Part shown: positions 8,754-35,761 of the stretch, piece by piece | Layout: each line of letters starts with the position of its first letter | Position numbering within the stretch: the stretch's first letter is position 1 | DNA from: Microcaldota archaeon | GTDB taxonomy: Archaea > Micrarchaeota > Micrarchaeia > Micrarchaeales > CABMGC01 | Direction of reading: 5' to 3' | DNA: 35,761 bases | NCBI GenBank assembly: GCA_021797745.1 | Contig: JAJZZD010000008.1 | Location: forward strand, 1-35,761 | Translations under genes and position numbers: made by a program | The notes under the pieces: generated by a model | What the model was told of the DNA's origin: nothing | What the model saw: only the letters and a program-made list of their open reading frames with translations | Database searches by the model: none

Positions 8754-9149
8754 TTAGCCGGCAACAAAATGAGGGACTATGAATATCGCAACAAGCAGGT
8801 CGATGAGCACGATAAGAGTTATTGCAAAAAATAGCCTGTTGCCTTCACGCAGAAACGCCAATACTGAAATCAAAACCCTGAAAACAGGAGTGGTAATCAG
8901 CACGATTAACCCTAAAAGTATGAATGATATCCCATTCAGATTCGCAATGCCAGAAAAAATCTCAGAAATTGAGTATGTATGCGTATTTACCTGCGAGTTT
9001 GAAGCAGACAGCTGGCTTAGGCTTAAACCGCTTGCGCCGTTATAGTAAAAAACAAGAAATGCGCCGAACAGAACAAGGGCTGCGCTCAGCAAAATGCCGG
9101 CTTTTAGGCTGTAAGCCACTGCATCGTTGAAGTCAATGTGTTTCGTCAT
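8754..9149 (-). CDS. DUF1634 family membrane protein
   Basis: This 131-residue protein has three predicted transmembrane helices: about 15-36 (LKAGILLSAALVLFGAFLVFY), 70-90 (LNGISFILLGLIVLITTPVF) and 108-127 (FFAITLIVLIDLLVAIFIV). The pattern and the internal FRxLIxxLAFLRExNRLF segment match DUF1634. Genes of this family are commonly next to TSUP (TauE/SafE) permeases, and here the ATG overlaps the TSUP stop codon by four bases (ATGA), so the two are translated together. It is presumably an accessory subunit of the transporter; the biochemical role is unknown. Confidence 0.85.
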   Translation of the reverse strand: MTKHIDFNDAVAYSLKAGILLSAALVLFGAFLVFYYNGASGLSLSQLSASNSQVNTHTYSISEIFSGIANLNGISFILLGLIVLITTPVFRVLISVLAFLREGNRLFFAITLIVLIDLLVAIFIVPHFVAG

Positions 9150-10000
9150 GCAACACCTAATCCTCTGAGTACCATTTCAAGCGCAACAACTGCAAGCACA
9201 ACAAGGAAAAACATCCTGATTTTTCTGCTGGCTGATTTCTCAAGCAATTTAGAGCCTGCGAAAGCGCCCATCAATACGCCAACAACTATCGGTGCGGCAA
9301 GGAACGGCTGTATGTAGCCGAATGACCAGTAGATTGCGCTTCCGGCAGCAGCCGTTACGCCTATCATGAAGTCGCTCGTCGCAGTTGTAACCTTCATCGG
9401 CAGCTTCATTCCCCAGTCCATGCCTATGACCTTCAGCACGCCAGACCCTATCCCCAAAAGCCCAGATATTATTCCTGCAAAACCCATTACTATTTCTCCA
9501 AGCCACCATCGGTATCCGGAATAATGCACTGTCTTTCGCGAAGCTTCGTCATAATACGAACCGCTTAACTGGAACGTTTTTGTAGTCCAGTCTCTGTTCT
9601 GCGGCTTTAGCCTATTTTTTTTGAACTGCATCAACGCAGGATACAGCGACAGCAACAACACTATACCGAATATTATGAAAATCAACGAACCTAGTCCATG
9701 GGCGTATATAAGCCCTGCAACCAAAGCTCCTGCAATTGCGCCCAGCGTAGTGGCTATTTCCAAGGACATGCCTATTTTTATGTTGCTAAGCCTGTCTTTC
9801 ACGTACGAGCTAGCTGCACCGCTTGACGTTGCTATAGTTGCGATGAGGCTAGCGCCTGCGGCATACTGTATTGGCACGCCAAATAGAATTGTGAGAGCAG
9901 GGATAAGCAGAACGCCGCCGCCCAATCCGCTCACGGCTCCTACGGCGCCGGCGAAACAGCCGGTAATTAGAATCAGGATGAAATACAGTATCGGCAACAC
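9146..10000 (-). CDS. TSUP (TauE/SafE) family anion permease
   Basis: This 284-residue polytopic membrane protein has about eight hydrophobic helices. The characteristic N-terminal glycine-rich first half-repeat is present (GAVGAVSGLGGGVLLIPAL), and the second repeat has GISGLLGIGSGVLKV. TSUP proteins export or import sulfite, sulfoacetate, thiosulfate or similar organosulfur anions; the substrate cannot be read from the sequence. Translation starts at GTG (10000-9998), with a TATA-like box near 10030-10042 on the minus strand and a leader of about 10 nt. It overlaps the downstream DUF1634 gene by four bases. The RNase P RNA lies immediately upstream on the same strand. Confidence 0.92.
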   Translation of the reverse strand: MLPILYFILILITGCFAGAVGAVSGLGGGVLLIPALTILFGVPIQYAAGASLIATIATSSGAASSYVKDRLSNIKIGMSLEIATTLGAIAGALVAGLIYAHGLGSLIFIIFGIVLLLSLYPALMQFKKNRLKPQNRDWTTKTFQLSGSYYDEASRKTVHYSGYRWWLGEIVMGFAGIISGLLGIGSGVLKVIGMDWGMKLPMKVTTATSDFMIGVTAAAGSAIYWSFGYIQPFLAAPIVVGVLMGAFAGSKLLEKSASRKIRMFFLVVLAVVALEMVLRGLGVA

Positions 10001-10056: not shown

Positions 10057-10294
10057 AGTGGTGTGCCGTAGCCTCCCTTCTGTTTTAGGCGACATTCGAC
10101 TAAGCTGCTTTTTGCATTGCATACCCACAGCGCGCGCATCGGCACGTTTCATGTGCACCGCAACGCTCGTCTTGTCACAGCTTCATGTTGCGCAGCACTT
10201 CGTTTCTGCTCCGAATCAGGCCTTAAGCCACACGCGCTTCTAGTATGGGGAGAGCTTCCTCAGTCATAAGACCGTAAGCCGCCCGCACACCACT
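10057..10294 (-). ncRNA. rnpB: RNase P RNA, small archaeal form
   Basis: The roughly 300-bp gap holds a structured RNA on the minus strand that I identify as the catalytic RNA of RNase P, which matures tRNA 5-prime ends. A 10-bp P1 helix closes it (AGTGGTGTGC with GCACACCACT). CR-I appears as CTGAGGAAGCTCTCCCC near the 5-prime end, and CR-V as AACAGAAGGGAGGCTACGG just before P1 closes. These two pair as helix P4, AGC-(T)-CTCCC with GGGAG-GCT, including the conserved bulged U. AGCAGAAACGA fits the CR-II/III region. At about 238 nt it is shorter than typical archaeal forms of about 300 nt. The neighbouring L7Ae protein is a known archaeal RNase P component. Confidence 0.85.
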
Positions 10295-10302
10295 GGCAAA
10301 TA

Positions 10303-11640
10303 TCACGTATTGGCTGTATTTAATGCTATCTTTAATCTGCGAGGATGAGATTGCACTGGCGGCATTTGCGGCATTGAACTAAAGTCTATTTTACCGTTGC
10401 GCACTACGCTAGTCATAGTGCGTTTAGGTCCAGCCGCTGTATAATTTTCCGTTGAATTTGCTGAAGGTCGATATAAACCTTCTAAAACAGATAAAACGTT
10501 AACGGCGCATGATGAAAAATTTATTTCAGGTTTAGACACCTGCACGTCTGCAGAGCTTACGTTAGCATAAGGGCTGGCTACTGTGTCTTTAACATGAACG
10601 AGGTAATCTTCGCCACCTACATTTACAGTTGAGAAATTATTAGGATAAATCTCAACCATCTTGCTAAAGCCATTTTGAGAGACGTTCAGTATTGCAGGAT
10701 AAAAATTGCTCTGCGAAGGACCTACATTCTGCAGCTGCACAGTGAATTTTCCGTGGCTAGCGTTTTGGCCTGCTTGCAATGTTGCCCAAGGCCGCGGCTG
10801 CAACTTGGTTACATTAGTTGCATTTACAAACGTTGCATTTACAAACTGCAGAACCGCCCATTTACTGCCCAAAACGCCCGATATAGTTTCTAGAACATGG
10901 ACACCAATACTGTGATTATTTGCAGTGAATATGGCATAATTAGGAGGTGTTACATTTATCGTATTAAACGGCACGCCATTGTATGAAAGAAGAAGTTGCG
11001 CTTCTCCATTCCGATATCCGATATCTGACAGCTGCGCGGAATAACCATTTCCATAGCTTAAATTTCTGCCTAATTCTACTAACTTATAAGGAGTGACGTT
11101 TGTTCCGTTGAGCTCTAGCTGCAAATACGCGGCTTCTGTGTGTCCGTGCAAACCAAATAAAATCGCCCCTGAGTTAAGTCCGAATTTAGTGCTGCCTATG
11201 CGGATATTCATTGAACTATTCGGCGTCGCTAAGTCAGTTATGACTTCGCTATTCATTGAACTATTCGGCGTCGCTAAGTCAGTTATGACTTTGCTGCCTC
11301 CGATTTTAACTATGGCAGCAGCATCAGGTACACCGAGGCCAGGTAGTTTCACGGTTAGATTTCCAGCGCTCCGATTTTGACCAACTTTTAGTACGAACAG
11401 TGGTGTCACAGGAATTTCGTGTGGCTGGCACGCATTGATGACAGATTGAATTAATAATGGCAAATGTGGCAAATTGGCCAACCCTGTATTAGTTTGCTCT
11501 AATGTCAGGTGTGTCAAAGATGGTTTTTTTCCAGGGTTTGCTGCAAACGGAATGCCAAACCCCAATACCACAACCGCAACTGCGATTGCTGCAGGTCTCT
11601 TTACGCGGTTTAACCATTTGATATATTTGTTCATGTTCAT
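10303..11640 (-). CDS. surface protein with three repeated beta-domains
   Basis: This 445-residue secreted protein has a basic N-terminus, one hydrophobic segment (AAIAVAVVVLGFGIPFAA, residues 17-34) and a long extracellular part with many N-x-S/T sequons. I see three diverged domains of about 90 residues. Each opens with a motif like K/T-LxxGQNxSxGxxxVxLxxxG: LKVGQNRSAGNLTVKL near 84, LVELGRNLSYGNGYSAQL near 187, and LQAGQNASHGKFTVQL near 288. Two in-frame tandem duplications are present: a 15-residue unit in domain 1 (VITDLATPNSSMN-containing) and FVNAT twice at the end of domain 2. A TATA box (11669-11679) is about 34 bp before the ATG. The function is unknown; a glycosylated S-layer-like or adhesive protein is a guess. 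Confidence 0.75.
   Translation of the reverse strand: MNMNKYIKWLNRVKRPAAIAVAVVVLGFGIPFAANPGKKPSLTHLTLEQTNTGLANLPHLPLLIQSVINACQPHEIPVTPLFVLKVGQNRSAGNLTVKLPGLGVPDAAAIVKIGGSKVITDLATPNSSMNSEVITDLATPNSSMNIRIGSTKFGLNSGAILFGLHGHTEAAYLQLELNGTNVTPYKLVELGRNLSYGNGYSAQLSDIGYRNGEAQLLLSYNGVPFNTINVTPPNYAIFTANNHSIGVHVLETISGVLGSKWAVLQFVNATFVNATNVTKLQPRPWATLQAGQNASHGKFTVQLQNVGPSQSNFYPAILNVSQNGFSKMVEIYPNNFSTVNVGGEDYLVHVKDTVASPYANVSSADVQVSKPEINFSSCAVNVLSVLEGLYRPSANSTENYTAAGPKRTMTSVVRNGKIDFSSMPQMPPVQSHPRRLKIALNTANT
10313..10327 (-). promoter_or_regulatory. TATA box of the RNase P RNA
   Basis: The minus strand has GCATTAAATACAG centred about 26 bp before position 10294, the predicted first base of the P1 helix. 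It lies inside the last codons of the upstream surface-protein gene. Confidence 0.65.
10817..10846. repeat. perfect 15-bp in-frame tandem duplication
   Basis: The unit gttgcatttacaaac occurs twice in a row (10817-10831, 10832-10846) inside the surface-protein gene and encodes FVNAT twice, adding one N-glycosylation sequon. Confidence 0.9.
11206..11295. repeat. 45-bp in-frame tandem duplication, 44/45 identical
   Basis: Positions 11206-11250 and 11251-11295 match except for one C/T difference near the end of the unit. The duplication adds 15 residues to the first extracellular domain of the surface protein and doubles an NSS sequon. Aligned with the third domain, the protein is contiguous if one copy is removed. 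Confidence 0.95.
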
Positions 11641-14876: not shown

Positions 14877-15983
14877 TCATACATGATTATCTCCCGAAGC
14901 GTTATTTCCCGTCTGCCCGACGGTAATTGCTTTGTGCAATATATTTATTGATGCGTTTATGTCTCTGTCCGATACTTCTCCGCATTTCTCGCATTCATAT
15001 GTTCTTTCACGTAGAGGCATATCCTGCAAGTTTCCACAAACATGGCATGTCTTTGTTGTATTCTTTGGATCTACAAAAACTATCTGACTACCAGCACTTT
15101 CAGCCTTGTATGTCAGCATGTTTGCAAATGTAGACCATCCTGCATCATTGATTTGTTTTCCATAATTCTGTTCTGCCATGTTTTGTGACTGCAATTTTTC
15201 CATTGCAATCAAGGAATATGAATTTACAAGATTGTTTGTGATCTTGTGAAGGAAGTCTGTTCTCGTGTTTGTTATCTTTTCATATATCTTTTCAACTTCA
15301 ATTTTTGCATCATATCTGTGTTTACTTCCTTTCTTTTTATTTGACATCTTCTTTTGTTTTATTGCAAGTATCTTTTCCCAGTGTGCAAGATGTTTGGGAT
15401 TCTTTATTTTTGTTCCATTCGATAATGTTGCTAGTGTTTTCAAACCCAAGTCTATTCCTACTTGTCCTTTATTATTACTGATGAAAGGTTTTGGATCTTG
15501 TTCTGCAATAAATATTGCGAACCACTTTCCTGAAGATTCTCTTTTCAAAGAAAGTGTTTTGATTTTACCTTCAATAGGTCTATGAACAATTACCTTTATT
15601 TCTCCGAAAGGAGTTATTTTTAGTTTCTTATTCTTGTCATTCAGCGAGAAACCTGATTGTGGATAATAAATTGATTTTGACCTATCTATATTCTTGAATC
15701 GTGGAAATCCTGCTTTCTTTCCTTTTTTTAGCATTTTGAAACATCGAATTAGTGAATTATGAAGTCTGTGGGATACTTCCTGTGCCGATTGGGAATACAT
15801 ACCGACGTCTTTTGTGTATGATTGAAGTTGTGATTTTGTTGGAAACTTGCCTGTTTCATTATAGATATTTTGAGAATACTCAAGAAGACAATTCCACAAG
15901 GTTTTTGAAATGTATCGGTGCATATTGAGATTTCTCTCTTGTGTTCTCGTTGGATATAACCTGAATTTATATGCTCGATTCAT
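14877..15983 (-). CDS. tnpB: TnpB, RNA-guided nuclease of the IS605 element (copy 1)
   Basis: This 368-residue protein has an N-terminal helix-turn-helix (MNRAYKFRLYPTRTQ) and a split RuvC nuclease whose three acidic residues are in VGIDLGLKTLATLSNG, AMEKLQ and SDRDINASINI. The zinc ribbon is CHVCG and CEKCG. All catalytic positions are present, so it is likely active. TnpB proteins use an RNA from the element's right end to cut the empty donor site after excision and so retain the element. The start codon follows the tnpA stop with no gap (TAAATG). The stop TGA overlaps an ATG (ATGA) that is in frame with thiI. The product is identical in copy 2. Confidence 0.95.
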   Translation of the reverse strand: MNRAYKFRLYPTRTQERNLNMHRYISKTLWNCLLEYSQNIYNETGKFPTKSQLQSYTKDVGMYSQSAQEVSHRLHNSLIRCFKMLKKGKKAGFPRFKNIDRSKSIYYPQSGFSLNDKNKKLKITPFGEIKVIVHRPIEGKIKTLSLKRESSGKWFAIFIAEQDPKPFISNNKGQVGIDLGLKTLATLSNGTKIKNPKHLAHWEKILAIKQKKMSNKKKGSKHRYDAKIEVEKIYEKITNTRTDFLHKITNNLVNSYSLIAMEKLQSQNMAEQNYGKQINDAGWSTFANMLTYKAESAGSQIVFVDPKNTTKTCHVCGNLQDMPLRERTYECEKCGEVSDRDINASINILHKAITVGQTGNNASGDNHV

Positions 15984-16382
15984 TTACATTCCTTTTTGTT
16001 CATCTATATATTTTCGTATCGTTGCTTCAGAAACATGACCGTGTGTTGAAACGAAATAACTCCTTGACCAAAGGGTTGGAATTCTCGACCTACATTCTTT
16101 GAATTCTTCTCTAAGTTCATGTGAAGTGAACCCTTTTATAGTTCCTATTATTTGATTTGGTGTAATAATTGGATTTCCTTTTATGAATAAATGAACGTGG
16201 TCTGGCATAACTTCTAAACTAATAACTTCACATCCCATTGTTTTCGCTTTTTCATTTATCAATTGTTTCAATCTTTCTTCTATTTTTCCTGTCAGAATTT
16301 TTGTTCTATATTTTGGACACCAAACAAAATAGTATCCCATAAAATGTACATTTGTTTCTGATGAATCGTATCCGTGTGGCAT
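15984..16382 (-). CDS. tnpA: IS200/IS605 transposase TnpA, Y1 HUH (copy 1)
   Basis: A 132-residue single-strand transposase. The metal-binding HUH motif is DHVHLFIKG (H62, H64) and the catalytic tyrosine is Y125 in TIRKYIDEQ. The N-terminal WCPKYR block is also typical. The protein differs from copy 2 by one residue, Tyr18 here and His18 there; His is the usual residue in the family (HxVWxPKYR), so copy 1 carries the derived form. It starts 89 bp inside the left end and is directly followed by tnpB. Confidence 0.95.
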   Translation of the reverse strand: MPHGYDSSETNVHFMGYYFVWCPKYRTKILTGKIEERLKQLINEKAKTMGCEVISLEVMPDHVHLFIKGNPIITPNQIIGTIKGFTSHELREEFKECRSRIPTLWSRSYFVSTHGHVSEATIRKYIDEQKGM

Positions 16383-17231: not shown

Positions 17232-17606
17232 TCACTTTGCTTCTTTTGCCGCAGGCTTTGCCATAGCCCACGAAGAAACTTCCTTAAGCGTATTGTCTCC
17301 GCTGCCGGCTTTTTCGACAGCAACAGAAGAGCATGGCACATTGAGCCCTGCCGCCTTTCCGACCTCGAGTTTTGTAGGCACAAATACAAGCGGAACCCTT
17401 TTCTGCTCGCATAACGGGGCTATGTGCATTACCACTTCCCTCGGTTCGACGTCGTTAGCTACGACGACAAGCACTGAAAGCCCTCTTTCGAGGCTTTTTG
17501 TAACCTCGTTTACGCCTTTTTTAATGGCTCCGCTCTGCTTTGCTAACTTTACCGAATTCAACGCTTTTTCGACAATTTCCTTTGGTACCTCATTTTCATT
17601 GGTCAT
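17232..17606 (-). CDS. rpl7ae: ribosomal protein L7Ae, kink-turn binder
   Basis: This 124-residue protein binds kink-turn RNA in the large ribosomal subunit, in box C/D and H/ACA guide RNPs and in archaeal RNase P. The binding surface motifs are GAIKKGVNEVTKSLERG and the variable loop LCEQKRVPLVFVPTKLEVGKAAG. A GAGGT Shine-Dalgarno-like sequence precedes the ATG by about 8 nt, and a TATA box lies at 17670-17681. It heads the L7Ae-S28e-L24e cluster. Its C-terminus (MAKPAAKEAK) is a short Ala/Lys tail. Confidence 0.95.
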   Translation of the reverse strand: MTNENEVPKEIVEKALNSVKLAKQSGAIKKGVNEVTKSLERGLSVLVVVANDVEPREVVMHIAPLCEQKRVPLVFVPTKLEVGKAAGLNVPCSSVAVEKAGSGDNTLKEVSSWAMAKPAAKEAK

Positions 17607-17922: not shown

Positions 17923-19029
17923 TCATACATGATTATCTCCCGAAGCGTTATTTCCCGTCTGCCCGACGGTAATTGCTTTGTGCAATATATTTATTGATGC
18001 GTTTATGTCTCTGTCCGATACTTCTCCGCATTTCTCGCATTCATATGTTCTTTCACGTAGAGGCATATCCTGCAAGTTTCCACAAACATGGCATGTCTTT
18101 GTTGTATTCTTTGGATCTACAAAAACTATCTGACTACCAGCACTTTCAGCCTTGTATGTCAGCATGTTTGCAAATGTAGACCATCCTGCATCATTGATTT
18201 GTTTTCCATAATTCTGTTCTGCCATGTTTTGTGACTGCAATTTTTCCATTGCAATCAAGGAATATGAATTTACAAGATTGTTTGTGATCTTGTGAAGGAA
18301 GTCTGTTCTCGTGTTTGTTATCTTTTCATATATCTTTTCAACTTCAATTTTTGCATCATATCTGTGTTTACTTCCTTTCTTTTTATTTGACATCTTCTTT
18401 TGTTTTATTGCAAGTATCTTTTCCCAGTGTGCAAGATGTTTGGGATTCTTTATTTTTGTTCCATTCGATAATGTTGCTAGTGTTTTCAAACCCAAGTCTA
18501 TTCCTACTTGTCCTTTATTATTACTGATGAAAGGTTTTGGATCTTGTTCTGCAATAAATATTGCGAACCACTTTCCTGAAGATTCTCTTTTCAAAGAAAG
18601 TGTTTTGATTTTACCTTCAATAGGTCTATGAACAATTACCTTTATTTCTCCGAAAGGAGTTATTTTTAGTTTCTTATTCTTGTCATTCAGCGAGAAACCT
18701 GATTGTGGATAATAAATTGATTTTGACCTATCTATATTCTTGAATCGTGGAAATCCTGCTTTCTTTCCTTTTTTTAGCATTTTGAAACATCGAATTAGTG
18801 AATTATGAAGTCTGTGGGATACTTCCTGTGCCGATTGGGAATACATACCGACGTCTTTTGTGTATGATTGAAGTTGTGATTTTGTTGGAAACTTGCCTGT
18901 TTCATTATAGATATTTTGAGAATACTCAAGAAGACAATTCCACAAGGTTTTTGAAATGTATCGGTGCATATTGAGATTTCTCTCTTGTGTTCTCGTTGGA
19001 TATAACCTGAATTTATATGCTCGATTCAT
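17923..19029 (-). CDS. tnpB: TnpB, RNA-guided nuclease of the IS605 element (copy 2)
   Basis: This is identical in protein sequence to the copy 1 TnpB (368 residues), with the same RuvC acidic residues and zinc ribbon. Here the ATG that overlaps the stop opens a frame that runs into intergenic sequence and ends soon after the element, so unlike copy 1 it does not extend a host gene. Confidence 0.95.
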   Translation of the reverse strand: MNRAYKFRLYPTRTQERNLNMHRYISKTLWNCLLEYSQNIYNETGKFPTKSQLQSYTKDVGMYSQSAQEVSHRLHNSLIRCFKMLKKGKKAGFPRFKNIDRSKSIYYPQSGFSLNDKNKKLKITPFGEIKVIVHRPIEGKIKTLSLKRESSGKWFAIFIAEQDPKPFISNNKGQVGIDLGLKTLATLSNGTKIKNPKHLAHWEKILAIKQKKMSNKKKGSKHRYDAKIEVEKIYEKITNTRTDFLHKITNNLVNSYSLIAMEKLQSQNMAEQNYGKQINDAGWSTFANMLTYKAESAGSQIVFVDPKNTTKTCHVCGNLQDMPLRERTYECEKCGEVSDRDINASINILHKAITVGQTGNNASGDNHV

Positions 19030-19428
19030 TTACATTCCTTTTTGTTCATCTATATATTTTCGTATCGTTGCTTCAGAAACATGACCGTGTGTTGAAACGA
19101 AATAACTCCTTGACCAAAGGGTTGGAATTCTCGACCTACATTCTTTGAATTCTTCTCTAAGTTCATGTGAAGTGAACCCTTTTATAGTTCCTATTATTTG
19201 ATTTGGTGTAATAATTGGATTTCCTTTTATGAATAAATGAACGTGGTCTGGCATAACTTCTAAACTAATAACTTCACATCCCATTGTTTTCGCTTTTTCA
19301 TTTATCAATTGTTTCAATCTTTCTTCTATTTTTCCTGTCAGAATTTTTGTTCTATATTTTGGACACCAAACAAAATGGTATCCCATAAAATGTACATTTG
19401 TTTCTGATGAATCGTATCCGTGTGGCAT
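19030..19428 (-). CDS. tnpA: IS200/IS605 transposase TnpA, Y1 HUH (copy 2)
   Basis: This 132-residue protein differs from copy 1 only by His at position 18 (MGYHFVWCPKYR), the family-typical residue. HUH (H62/H64) and Tyr125 are intact, so this copy is probably the better candidate for a functional transposase. Confidence 0.95.
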   Translation of the reverse strand: MPHGYDSSETNVHFMGYHFVWCPKYRTKILTGKIEERLKQLINEKAKTMGCEVISLEVMPDHVHLFIKGNPIITPNQIIGTIKGFTSHELREEFKECRSRIPTLWSRSYFVSTHGHVSEATIRKYIDEQKGM

Positions 19429-34486: not shown

Positions 34487-34526
34487 ATGTGTTATTAATT
34501 ATCATTTGATAATTAACTTAACACAT
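34487..34526. promoter_or_regulatory. large inverted repeat, probable AbiEi operator
   Basis: Starting at the central ATTT (34504-34507), TTAATTATC pairs with GATAATTAA (9 bp). After a two-base bulge (CT), ATGTGTTA pairs with TAACACAT (8 bp), giving 17 bp in 40 bp. The right arm abuts the TATA box of the abiE operon. AbiEi-type antitoxins are known to repress their own operons by binding inverted repeats near the promoter, so this is the natural candidate. Confidence 0.7.
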
Positions 34527-34538
34527 ATATTTAAATAC
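34525..34538 (+). promoter_or_regulatory. TATA box of the abiE operon
   Basis: atatatttaaata is centred near 34531, which predicts transcription from about 34557 and translation from the ATG at 34560 with nearly no leader. A protein bound to the preceding inverted repeat would block TBP/TFB. Confidence 0.65.
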
Positions 34539-34559
34539 CATCTTGTACAAATTACTAAT

Positions 34560-35195
34560 ATGCAAACAAGCGACTTTGTAAGGTTTCTGATTGAAAGTCA
34601 CATGCCCGTGTTTACCTTAAATGATACGGTAAAGATACTGCACAAAAACAGAACTTACTCCATACTTTTCCTTCACAGATGCGTTAAGAAAGGGTACATT
34701 GGCAGGGTCGAAAGGGGCTTGTACTATGTAAAGGAGAGGTACAACGAATACGAGATAGCGTCGCATGTGATGAGCCCCTCATATGTTAGCATGGTGTCCG
34801 CGCTTGCCTACTACGGCTTGACTACACAGATACCGCGAGTAGTCTATGTAGTCTCAACGAAAAGGCACAAACGGCTCAACGGAGTTGCGGGTTTCGACAT
34901 TGTTTTTAAAAAAATAAAAAAGGACATGCTGTTCGGATACAAAAAGGAAGCAGATGGTAACATATTCATCGCGGAGCCGGAGAAGGCACTGGTAGACATA
35001 TATTATTTTGATGATGTAAATGACCTCGACCCTGCGGCACTTGAAAGGCCAGCCAGGATAGACGTAAACAAACTTGTGTCTTATGCGGTGAAAAGCAAGA
35101 AAAGGTCGGTGCTCGTTGGAATCACGGCATTGCTGAGAGAACACGGGTATGCAACGCAGGCTAAAAGGCTGGCTACTTTAGCACAAATAGATTAG
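34560..35195 (+). CDS. AbiEi-type antitoxin / transcriptional regulator
   Basis: This 211-residue protein has an N-terminal winged helix-turn-helix (FTLNDTVKILHKNRTYSILFLHRCVKKGYIGRVERGLYYV) and the C-terminal AbiEi domain (SHVMSPSYVSMVSALAYYGLTTQIP, then IFIAEPEKALVDIYYF). AbiEi antitoxins repress their operon and neutralise AbiEii. I start at ATG 34560; a longer frame begins inside the operator and before the TATA box, so it cannot be the transcribed start. The stop TAG forms part of the ribosome-binding site (TAGGTGAG) of the next gene. Its helper role and the type IV mode are inferred from the family. Confidence 0.9.
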   Translation: MQTSDFVRFLIESHMPVFTLNDTVKILHKNRTYSILFLHRCVKKGYIGRVERGLYYVKERYNEYEIASHVMSPSYVSMVSALAYYGLTTQIPRVVYVVSTKRHKRLNGVAGFDIVFKKIKKDMLFGYKKEADGNIFIAEPEKALVDIYYFDDVNDLDPAALERPARIDVNKLVSYAVKSKKRSVLVGITALLREHGYATQAKRLATLAQID

Positions 35196-35203
35196 GTGAG
35201 CAT

Positions 35204-35761
35204 ATGATTGAGAAGGATGAGCTTCTTAAAATGCGCATTTACGAGCAACCGTATCAGAAGGAGAAGGACTACGTGGAAGAACTATTTCTTGATGAGATAT
35301 ATACTGTAACTGGAGAGTTGGTGTTTAAGGGCGGGACAGCACTCTCAAAATTCTATAACTCTATAAGGTTTTCCGACGATCTCGACTTCTCACTGATGCA
35401 TGATGGCGGCGGAAATAGGCTGTCCGTATTGCTTGACAATGTCGTAGACAAGATTTCCAAGGAATATCCGCTGAAGATTATGAGGAAGAAAAATAATGCC
35501 GATATGCTTGTGTACGAGCTTAGCGTGAGGGGACCGTTATTTGAAATGCTGAACAAATACCAGCATCTGAAGATAGAGGTGGATAAGAAGGCTTCTGTCA
35601 TTGAGAAAACAGAGGTGTTTAGGAGAAACCCTCCGTATCTAGACTTAAAACCGTACACCGCGGTAGTCATGAATAGGAAGGAGATATTATCTGAGAAGAT
35701 TGTTGCACTACTTTTCAGGCATAATGTTAAGTCAAGAGATTTGTATGACATCTATTTTCTC
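35204..35761 (+). CDS. AbiEii-type nucleotidyltransferase toxin (partial, cut by window end)
   Basis: The frame starts at ATG 35204 behind a GGTGA ribosome-binding site with 5-nt spacing and stays open to the last base, giving 186 residues. The nucleotidyltransferase motifs are VFKGGTALSKFY (about residues 40-51) and FSDDLDFSL (about 56-64) with the catalytic acidic pair. Further on, EILSEKIVALLFRHNVKSRDLYDIYFL is the usual KxxALxxRxxxRDxYD segment of the AbiEii/DUF1814 family. These proteins act as growth-inhibiting toxins that modify tRNA ends or nucleotides in phage defence. The C-terminal part lies beyond the window. Confidence 0.92.
   Translation, partial: MIEKDELLKMRIYEQPYQKEKDYVEELFLDEIYTVTGELVFKGGTALSKFYNSIRFSDDLDFSLMHDGGGNRLSVLLDNVVDKISKEYPLKIMRKKNNADMLVYELSVRGPLFEMLNKYQHLKIEVDKKASVIEKTEVFRRNPPYLDLKPYTAVVMNRKEILSEKIVALLFRHNVKSRDLYDIYFL

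Follow-up and report, generated by a model that had tools for sequence, protein, structure and literature searches.

A predicted compact, type-M-like RNase P RNA gene in a Micrarchaeota archaeon

RNase P is the enzyme that trims the 5' end of tRNAs. A preliminary description of the 35,761-nucleotide stretch of DNA analyzed here (the window) placed the gene for its RNA on the minus strand, in a gap between two protein genes, and presented it as a hidden, noteworthy case. The question raised by this locus was whether so short an element is a working RNase P RNA of a known archaeal kind, a decaying remnant, a minimal form or no RNA gene at all. The element almost certainly encodes the catalytic RNA of RNase P in this Micrarchaeota archaeon, as indicated by the sequence comparisons set out below.

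Identification and location of the gene

A scan with Rfam 15 matched RNaseP_arch (RF00373) to window positions 10294 to 10057 on the minus strand. The match covered the model from end to end (positions 1 to 288 of 288), with a score of 99.3 bits against a gathering cut-off of 84 bits and an E value of 8.9e-27. The archaeal covariance-model scan proposed in the preliminary description therefore gave a full-length match, and the two placements of the 238-nt gene (10057 to 10294) agreed to the base. An RNase P RNA elsewhere in the genome would have spoken against this placement; there were no further RF00373 matches in the genome (806 kb in 9 contigs, 90.6% complete), and a BLAST search against 805 kb of genome pieces detected no second copy or fragment of more than 15 nt. 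EF-2 matches of up to about 71% place the host in Candidatus Micrarchaeota. The gap around the gene, put at about 300 bp in the preliminary description, measured 302 bp and was bounded by open reading frames (ORFs) at 9146 to 10000 and 10303 to 11640. The former encodes a TauE/SafE-family permease, and the latter, the upstream neighbor, matched no Pfam family. The 445-amino-acid product of the upstream ORF contains the peptide VITDLATPNSSMN repeated in tandem.

A TATA box, TTAAATA, was present at positions 10317 to 10323 (minus strand), from -29 to -23 relative to nucleotide 1, within the final codons of the ORF that precedes the gene, as had been predicted. A TATA-like A/T-rich box was found at the same distance in 29 of 29 relatives, with 100% A/T at -27 to -24; these 29 rows come from related genomes and indicate conservation rather than 29 independent observations.

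Secondary structure

The P1 helix, the conserved blocks CR-I and CR-V, and a P4 pairing with a bulged U were all present as first described. P1 is a perfect 10-bp helix in which AGUGGUGUGC (10285 to 10294) pairs with GCACACCACU (10066 to 10057), and two-sided changes were observed in 6 of the 10 pairs. In P2, positions 10278 to 10283 pair with 10093 to 10088, with two-sided changes in five of six pairs, and the P3 hairpin (10261 to 10274) has 5 bp, three of which showed such changes. The 8-bp P4 helix is formed by AGC[U]CUCCC (10248 to 10256; bulged U42 at 10253), which lies within CR-I (GAGGAAGCUC), and GGGAGGCU (10070 to 10077), which lies within CR-V (AACAGAAGGGAGGCUAC). Across 29 genomes, 100% of P4 cells were paired, and two-sided changes were detected in four pairs. 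The complete model has 64 pairs: 10 bp in P1, 6 in P2, 5 in P3, 8 in P4, 5 in P5, approximately 6 to 8 in P7, 3 in P9, 4 in P10, 4 in P11, 6 in P12 plus a 2-bp tip, and 3 in P15.

Two T-loop modules of the specificity domain, CR-II (CAGAAACG, 10201 to 10208) and CR-III (AUGAAACG, 10145 to 10152), were aligned to the RF00373 consensus and were nearly invariant. The tip of P12 (10165 to 10181) carries a K-turn-like signature, GC-NNN-GA...GA-GC, which was invariant or nearly so in 29 genomes and was conserved without a recognizable outer helix. This tip may be a K-turn and is a candidate site for L7Ae.

Shortened helices had been anticipated from the length of the element, and this was borne out. 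P8, the first hairpin of the specificity domain, is deleted in the RF00373 alignment, P9 and P12 are short, and the P16/P17/P6 region is absent, with 5 nt standing in for 39 positions of the model. P15 (10106 to 10116) is reduced to a 3-bp hairpin, the only P15 that the alignment supported, and its first pair showed a two-sided change from G-C to U-A. Its loop, L15, is AAAAA and lacks the GGU motif for CCA.

Comparative support for the fold

A structural alignment was constructed from 29 homologues belonging to two families of the order, with the classical helices marked, including the P2/P4 pseudoknot. In the 64-pair model, 96.8% of pair cells were kept. Two-sided changes were observed in 43 of the 64 pairs compared to 20.9 expected from shuffles, and the covariation score was 0.384 compared to 0.176 in shuffles, with none of 500 shuffles reaching the observed values for pairing or covariation. 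Sliding the partners by 1 to 3 columns reduced pairing to between 27% and 44%. Pairing was 85% of cells in P7, and the last pairs of this helix and the register of P9 were uncertain in part of the alignment. The bases of the catalytic core, P4 and the T-loops were nearly invariant among the 29 genomes. Folding of the single sequence, which had also been proposed, yielded an energy z score of only -2.1 against shuffles; as this is weak evidence, folding energy was set aside in favor of covariation and the case rests on comparison.

Protein partners and tRNA genes

Genes for Pop5 (C3:8449-8676), Rpp21 (C6:72962-73207) and Rpp29 (C3:187534-187776) were detected above the Pfam cut-offs. L7Ae is ribosomal protein eL8 and doubles as the subunit of archaeal RNase P that binds K-turns; its gene lies in the window at 17232 to 17606 on the minus strand (Pfam PF01248, E value of 3e-23; NCBIfam TIGR03677, E value of 9e-39), with a TIGR03677 score of 132.1 bits that was slightly below the cut-off of 134.6. 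Rpp30 was not detected in this genome with Pfam PF01876, which produced sub-threshold matches only, in two relatives. A gene for a 191-amino-acid protein overlaps the start of Pop5, and this protein aligns with the sub-threshold Rpp30 matches of the two relatives. This candidate (L127:2249-2824, in G000:C3) is located behind an Orc1/Cdc6-like gene and was missed by both Pfam and NCBIfam. When a profile of four candidate proteins was compared with solved structures, the best two matches were the Rpp30 proteins of M. jannaschii and P. horikoshii, both weak (E values of 0.026 and 0.18). Position and the weak profile match suggest that the 191-amino-acid protein is probably a divergent Rpp30. The Pfam result had pointed to a loss of Rpp30, which was rejected, as this divergent candidate adjoins Pop5. 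HARP, the protein-only RNase P, was not found in this genome or in seven relatives.

ARAGORN predicted 41 tRNA genes, of which some are doubtful. None of the 41 encodes CCA, which agrees with the lack of the L15 motif. TATA-like boxes of the tRNA genes were situated at scattered distances, from approximately -27 to -44, implying leaders that would range from none to about 15 nt. Leaderless tRNAs such as those of Nanoarchaeum equitans were not supported, given this scatter.

These data bear on whether the element could be a recognizable, inactive RNase P RNA in the course of decay. There is a published precedent in the nanoarchaeon Nst1, whose RNase P RNA is shortened and partly degraded (PMC3655853), and the window RNA is shorter than the 269 to 305 nt of the non-micrarchaeal archaeal matches among those searched here. 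Against this reading, the bases of the core, P4 and T-loops are nearly invariant, and the helices still pair through many two-sided changes. Furthermore, the gene is the sole copy, protein partners are encoded and no protein-only alternative was found. The comparative evidence argues strongly against decay, and we regard a remnant as very improbable.

Type assignment

A second reading was that the RNA belongs to type T/P, a minimal form known from Pyrobaculum and its relatives that lacks a specificity domain. Small size is shared with this type. A specificity domain is present in the window RNA, with P7, P9, P10, P11 and P12 supported by covariation and accompanied by CR-II and CR-III, and type T/P is excluded for this reason; its probability is lower still than that of a remnant. 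The type T model suggested in the preliminary description was thus a misfit, both T-loop modules being intact. By these structural features the RNA is type-M-like and not of the minimal type T/P.

Distribution and compactness

An RNase P RNA match was obtained in 55 of 60 relatives and, over the phylum, in 168 of 196 sampled genomes (87 of the 93 most complete). Lengths were about 228 to 244 nt in the order of the window and from 191 to more than 300 nt elsewhere in the phylum. Five of the 60 relatives had no match. In one of these, G004, the RNase P RNA gene is cut by the end of a contig. That genus g14 has lost the RNA was considered and rejected, since a third g14 genome, G214, has a match, and the relatives without a match beyond G004 and this genus are incomplete assemblies. 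On this comparative evidence, compactness is a trait of the lineage, and the gene is not hidden, exceptional or relict. The description of the gene as hidden or noteworthy did not hold, as a standard Rfam model scores it above the cut-off and most sampled genomes of the phylum have one.

The probability that the element is some other GC-rich stretch, intergenic or coding, that resembles the model by chance is negligible: for all that the single-sequence energy is just 2.1 standard deviations below shuffles and a 70-amino-acid ORF lies on the opposite strand, a chance match is excluded by the Rfam E value of 9e-27, by covariation with its shuffle and slide controls and by recurrence in relatives and in more than 160 genomes of the phylum.

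Shorter matches were present in other Micrarchaeota: L149 (210 nt) has nearly lost the P12 region, and those at G087:C53:11361-11561 and G081:C9:14598-14788 have 201 and 191 nt, respectively. These three RNAs come nearer to a genuinely reduced form than the window RNA does. One relative, G015, yielded an additional RNase P RNA that differs greatly from the first (L002, in G015:C44; 143 bits), which probably represents contamination of the assembly.

Possible mobile elements at RNase P RNA genes and in the window

In two relatives, G021 (L128:635-2596) and G036 (L129:736-2700), the 65 nt at the 3' terminus of the RNase P RNA gene are repeated approximately 1.6 kb downstream, with identities of 63/65 and 64/65, respectively. 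An AbiEii nucleotidyltransferase gene (Pfam PF08843, E value of 3e-14) and a likely partner gene lie between the repeats, and no integrase was found there. In G004, which is of a different genus, an AbiEi/AbiEii-like pair is located directly behind the RNase P RNA gene (L153). The 3' ends of tRNA genes are well known as insertion sites, and from these arrangements it looks as though the RNase P RNA gene may serve likewise at its 3' end, with the repeats resembling attachment sites. This arrangement was confined to relatives, and no 3'-end repeat around an AbiE toxin-antitoxin cassette was present at the RNase P RNA gene of the window.

Within the window, positions 34506 to 35761 hold an AbiEi-like gene and, behind it, an AbiEii-like gene that is cut off by the end of the contig; similar pieces were observed on contigs C1, C8 and C4. 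Two near-identical IS200/IS605-type units with TnpA- and TnpB-like ORFs (14877 to 16382 and 17923 to 19428) bracket a small ribosomal block comprising L24e-like, S28e-like and L7Ae genes.

Discussion

This gene is of a known kind and is ordinary: a standard RNA-family search finds it and relatives carry it. The gene has a conserved TATA box of its own a short way upstream. Its RNA folds into two domains, one catalytic (P1 to P5, P15 and the P4 pseudoknot with the bulged U) and one for specificity (P7, P9 to P12, the CR-II and CR-III T-loop modules and the K-turn-like P12 tip). By analogy with established archaeal RNase P biology, the catalytic domain would be the binding site of Pop5-Rpp30 and the specificity domain that of Rpp21-Rpp29 and L7Ae, and the complex would cleave 5' leaders off pre-tRNAs. 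An RNA without the L15 loop would not be expected to pair with the CCA end of the tRNA.

The wider meaning is that this archaeon, despite its small genome, most likely relies on the usual RNA enzyme for tRNA processing. The compact RNA, type-M-like in layout, is a stable trait of the order. The natural variants within the phylum, spanning 191 to more than 300 nt, could help to define the dispensable parts of the archaeal RNA. No paper linking RNase P RNA with Micrarchaeota was found in the literature searched. It is conceivable, though we hold it to be doubtful, that the order-wide RNA forms a separate and so far undescribed sub-type within type M, with a length of about 228 to 244 nt, a minimal K-turn-like P12 tip, a 3-bp P15 and a strongly divergent Rpp30.

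Among known systems, the RF00373 consensus has 288 positions, and the window RNA spans the full model above the cut-off while being about 50 nt shorter. Its P4 has AGC[U]C where the model consensus has AAG[U]C, a difference that arose via paired changes; a lineage-specific novelty was rejected, since AGC[U]C also occurs in a Methanofastidiosia genome. Compactness and the lack of an L15 loop are shared with type T/P of Pyrobaculum, which differs in having no specificity domain. Type M is defined by the absence of P8, P16 and P6 and of a substrate loop in P15 (PMC4919922), and the RNase P RNA of M. jannaschii has T-loop modules and a K-turn beyond P12 (PMC6565675). The window RNA shares with type M (Methanocaldococcus jannaschii and Archaeoglobus) the absence of P8, P16, P6 and the CCA-binding loop in L15, and it likewise keeps a specificity domain that contains T-loop modules; its K-turn-like element beyond P12 may correspond to the K-turn of type M. 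It differs from type M in having only 3 bp in the P15 hairpin, in extending P12 by no more than a very short K-turn-like tip and in coming from a different lineage.
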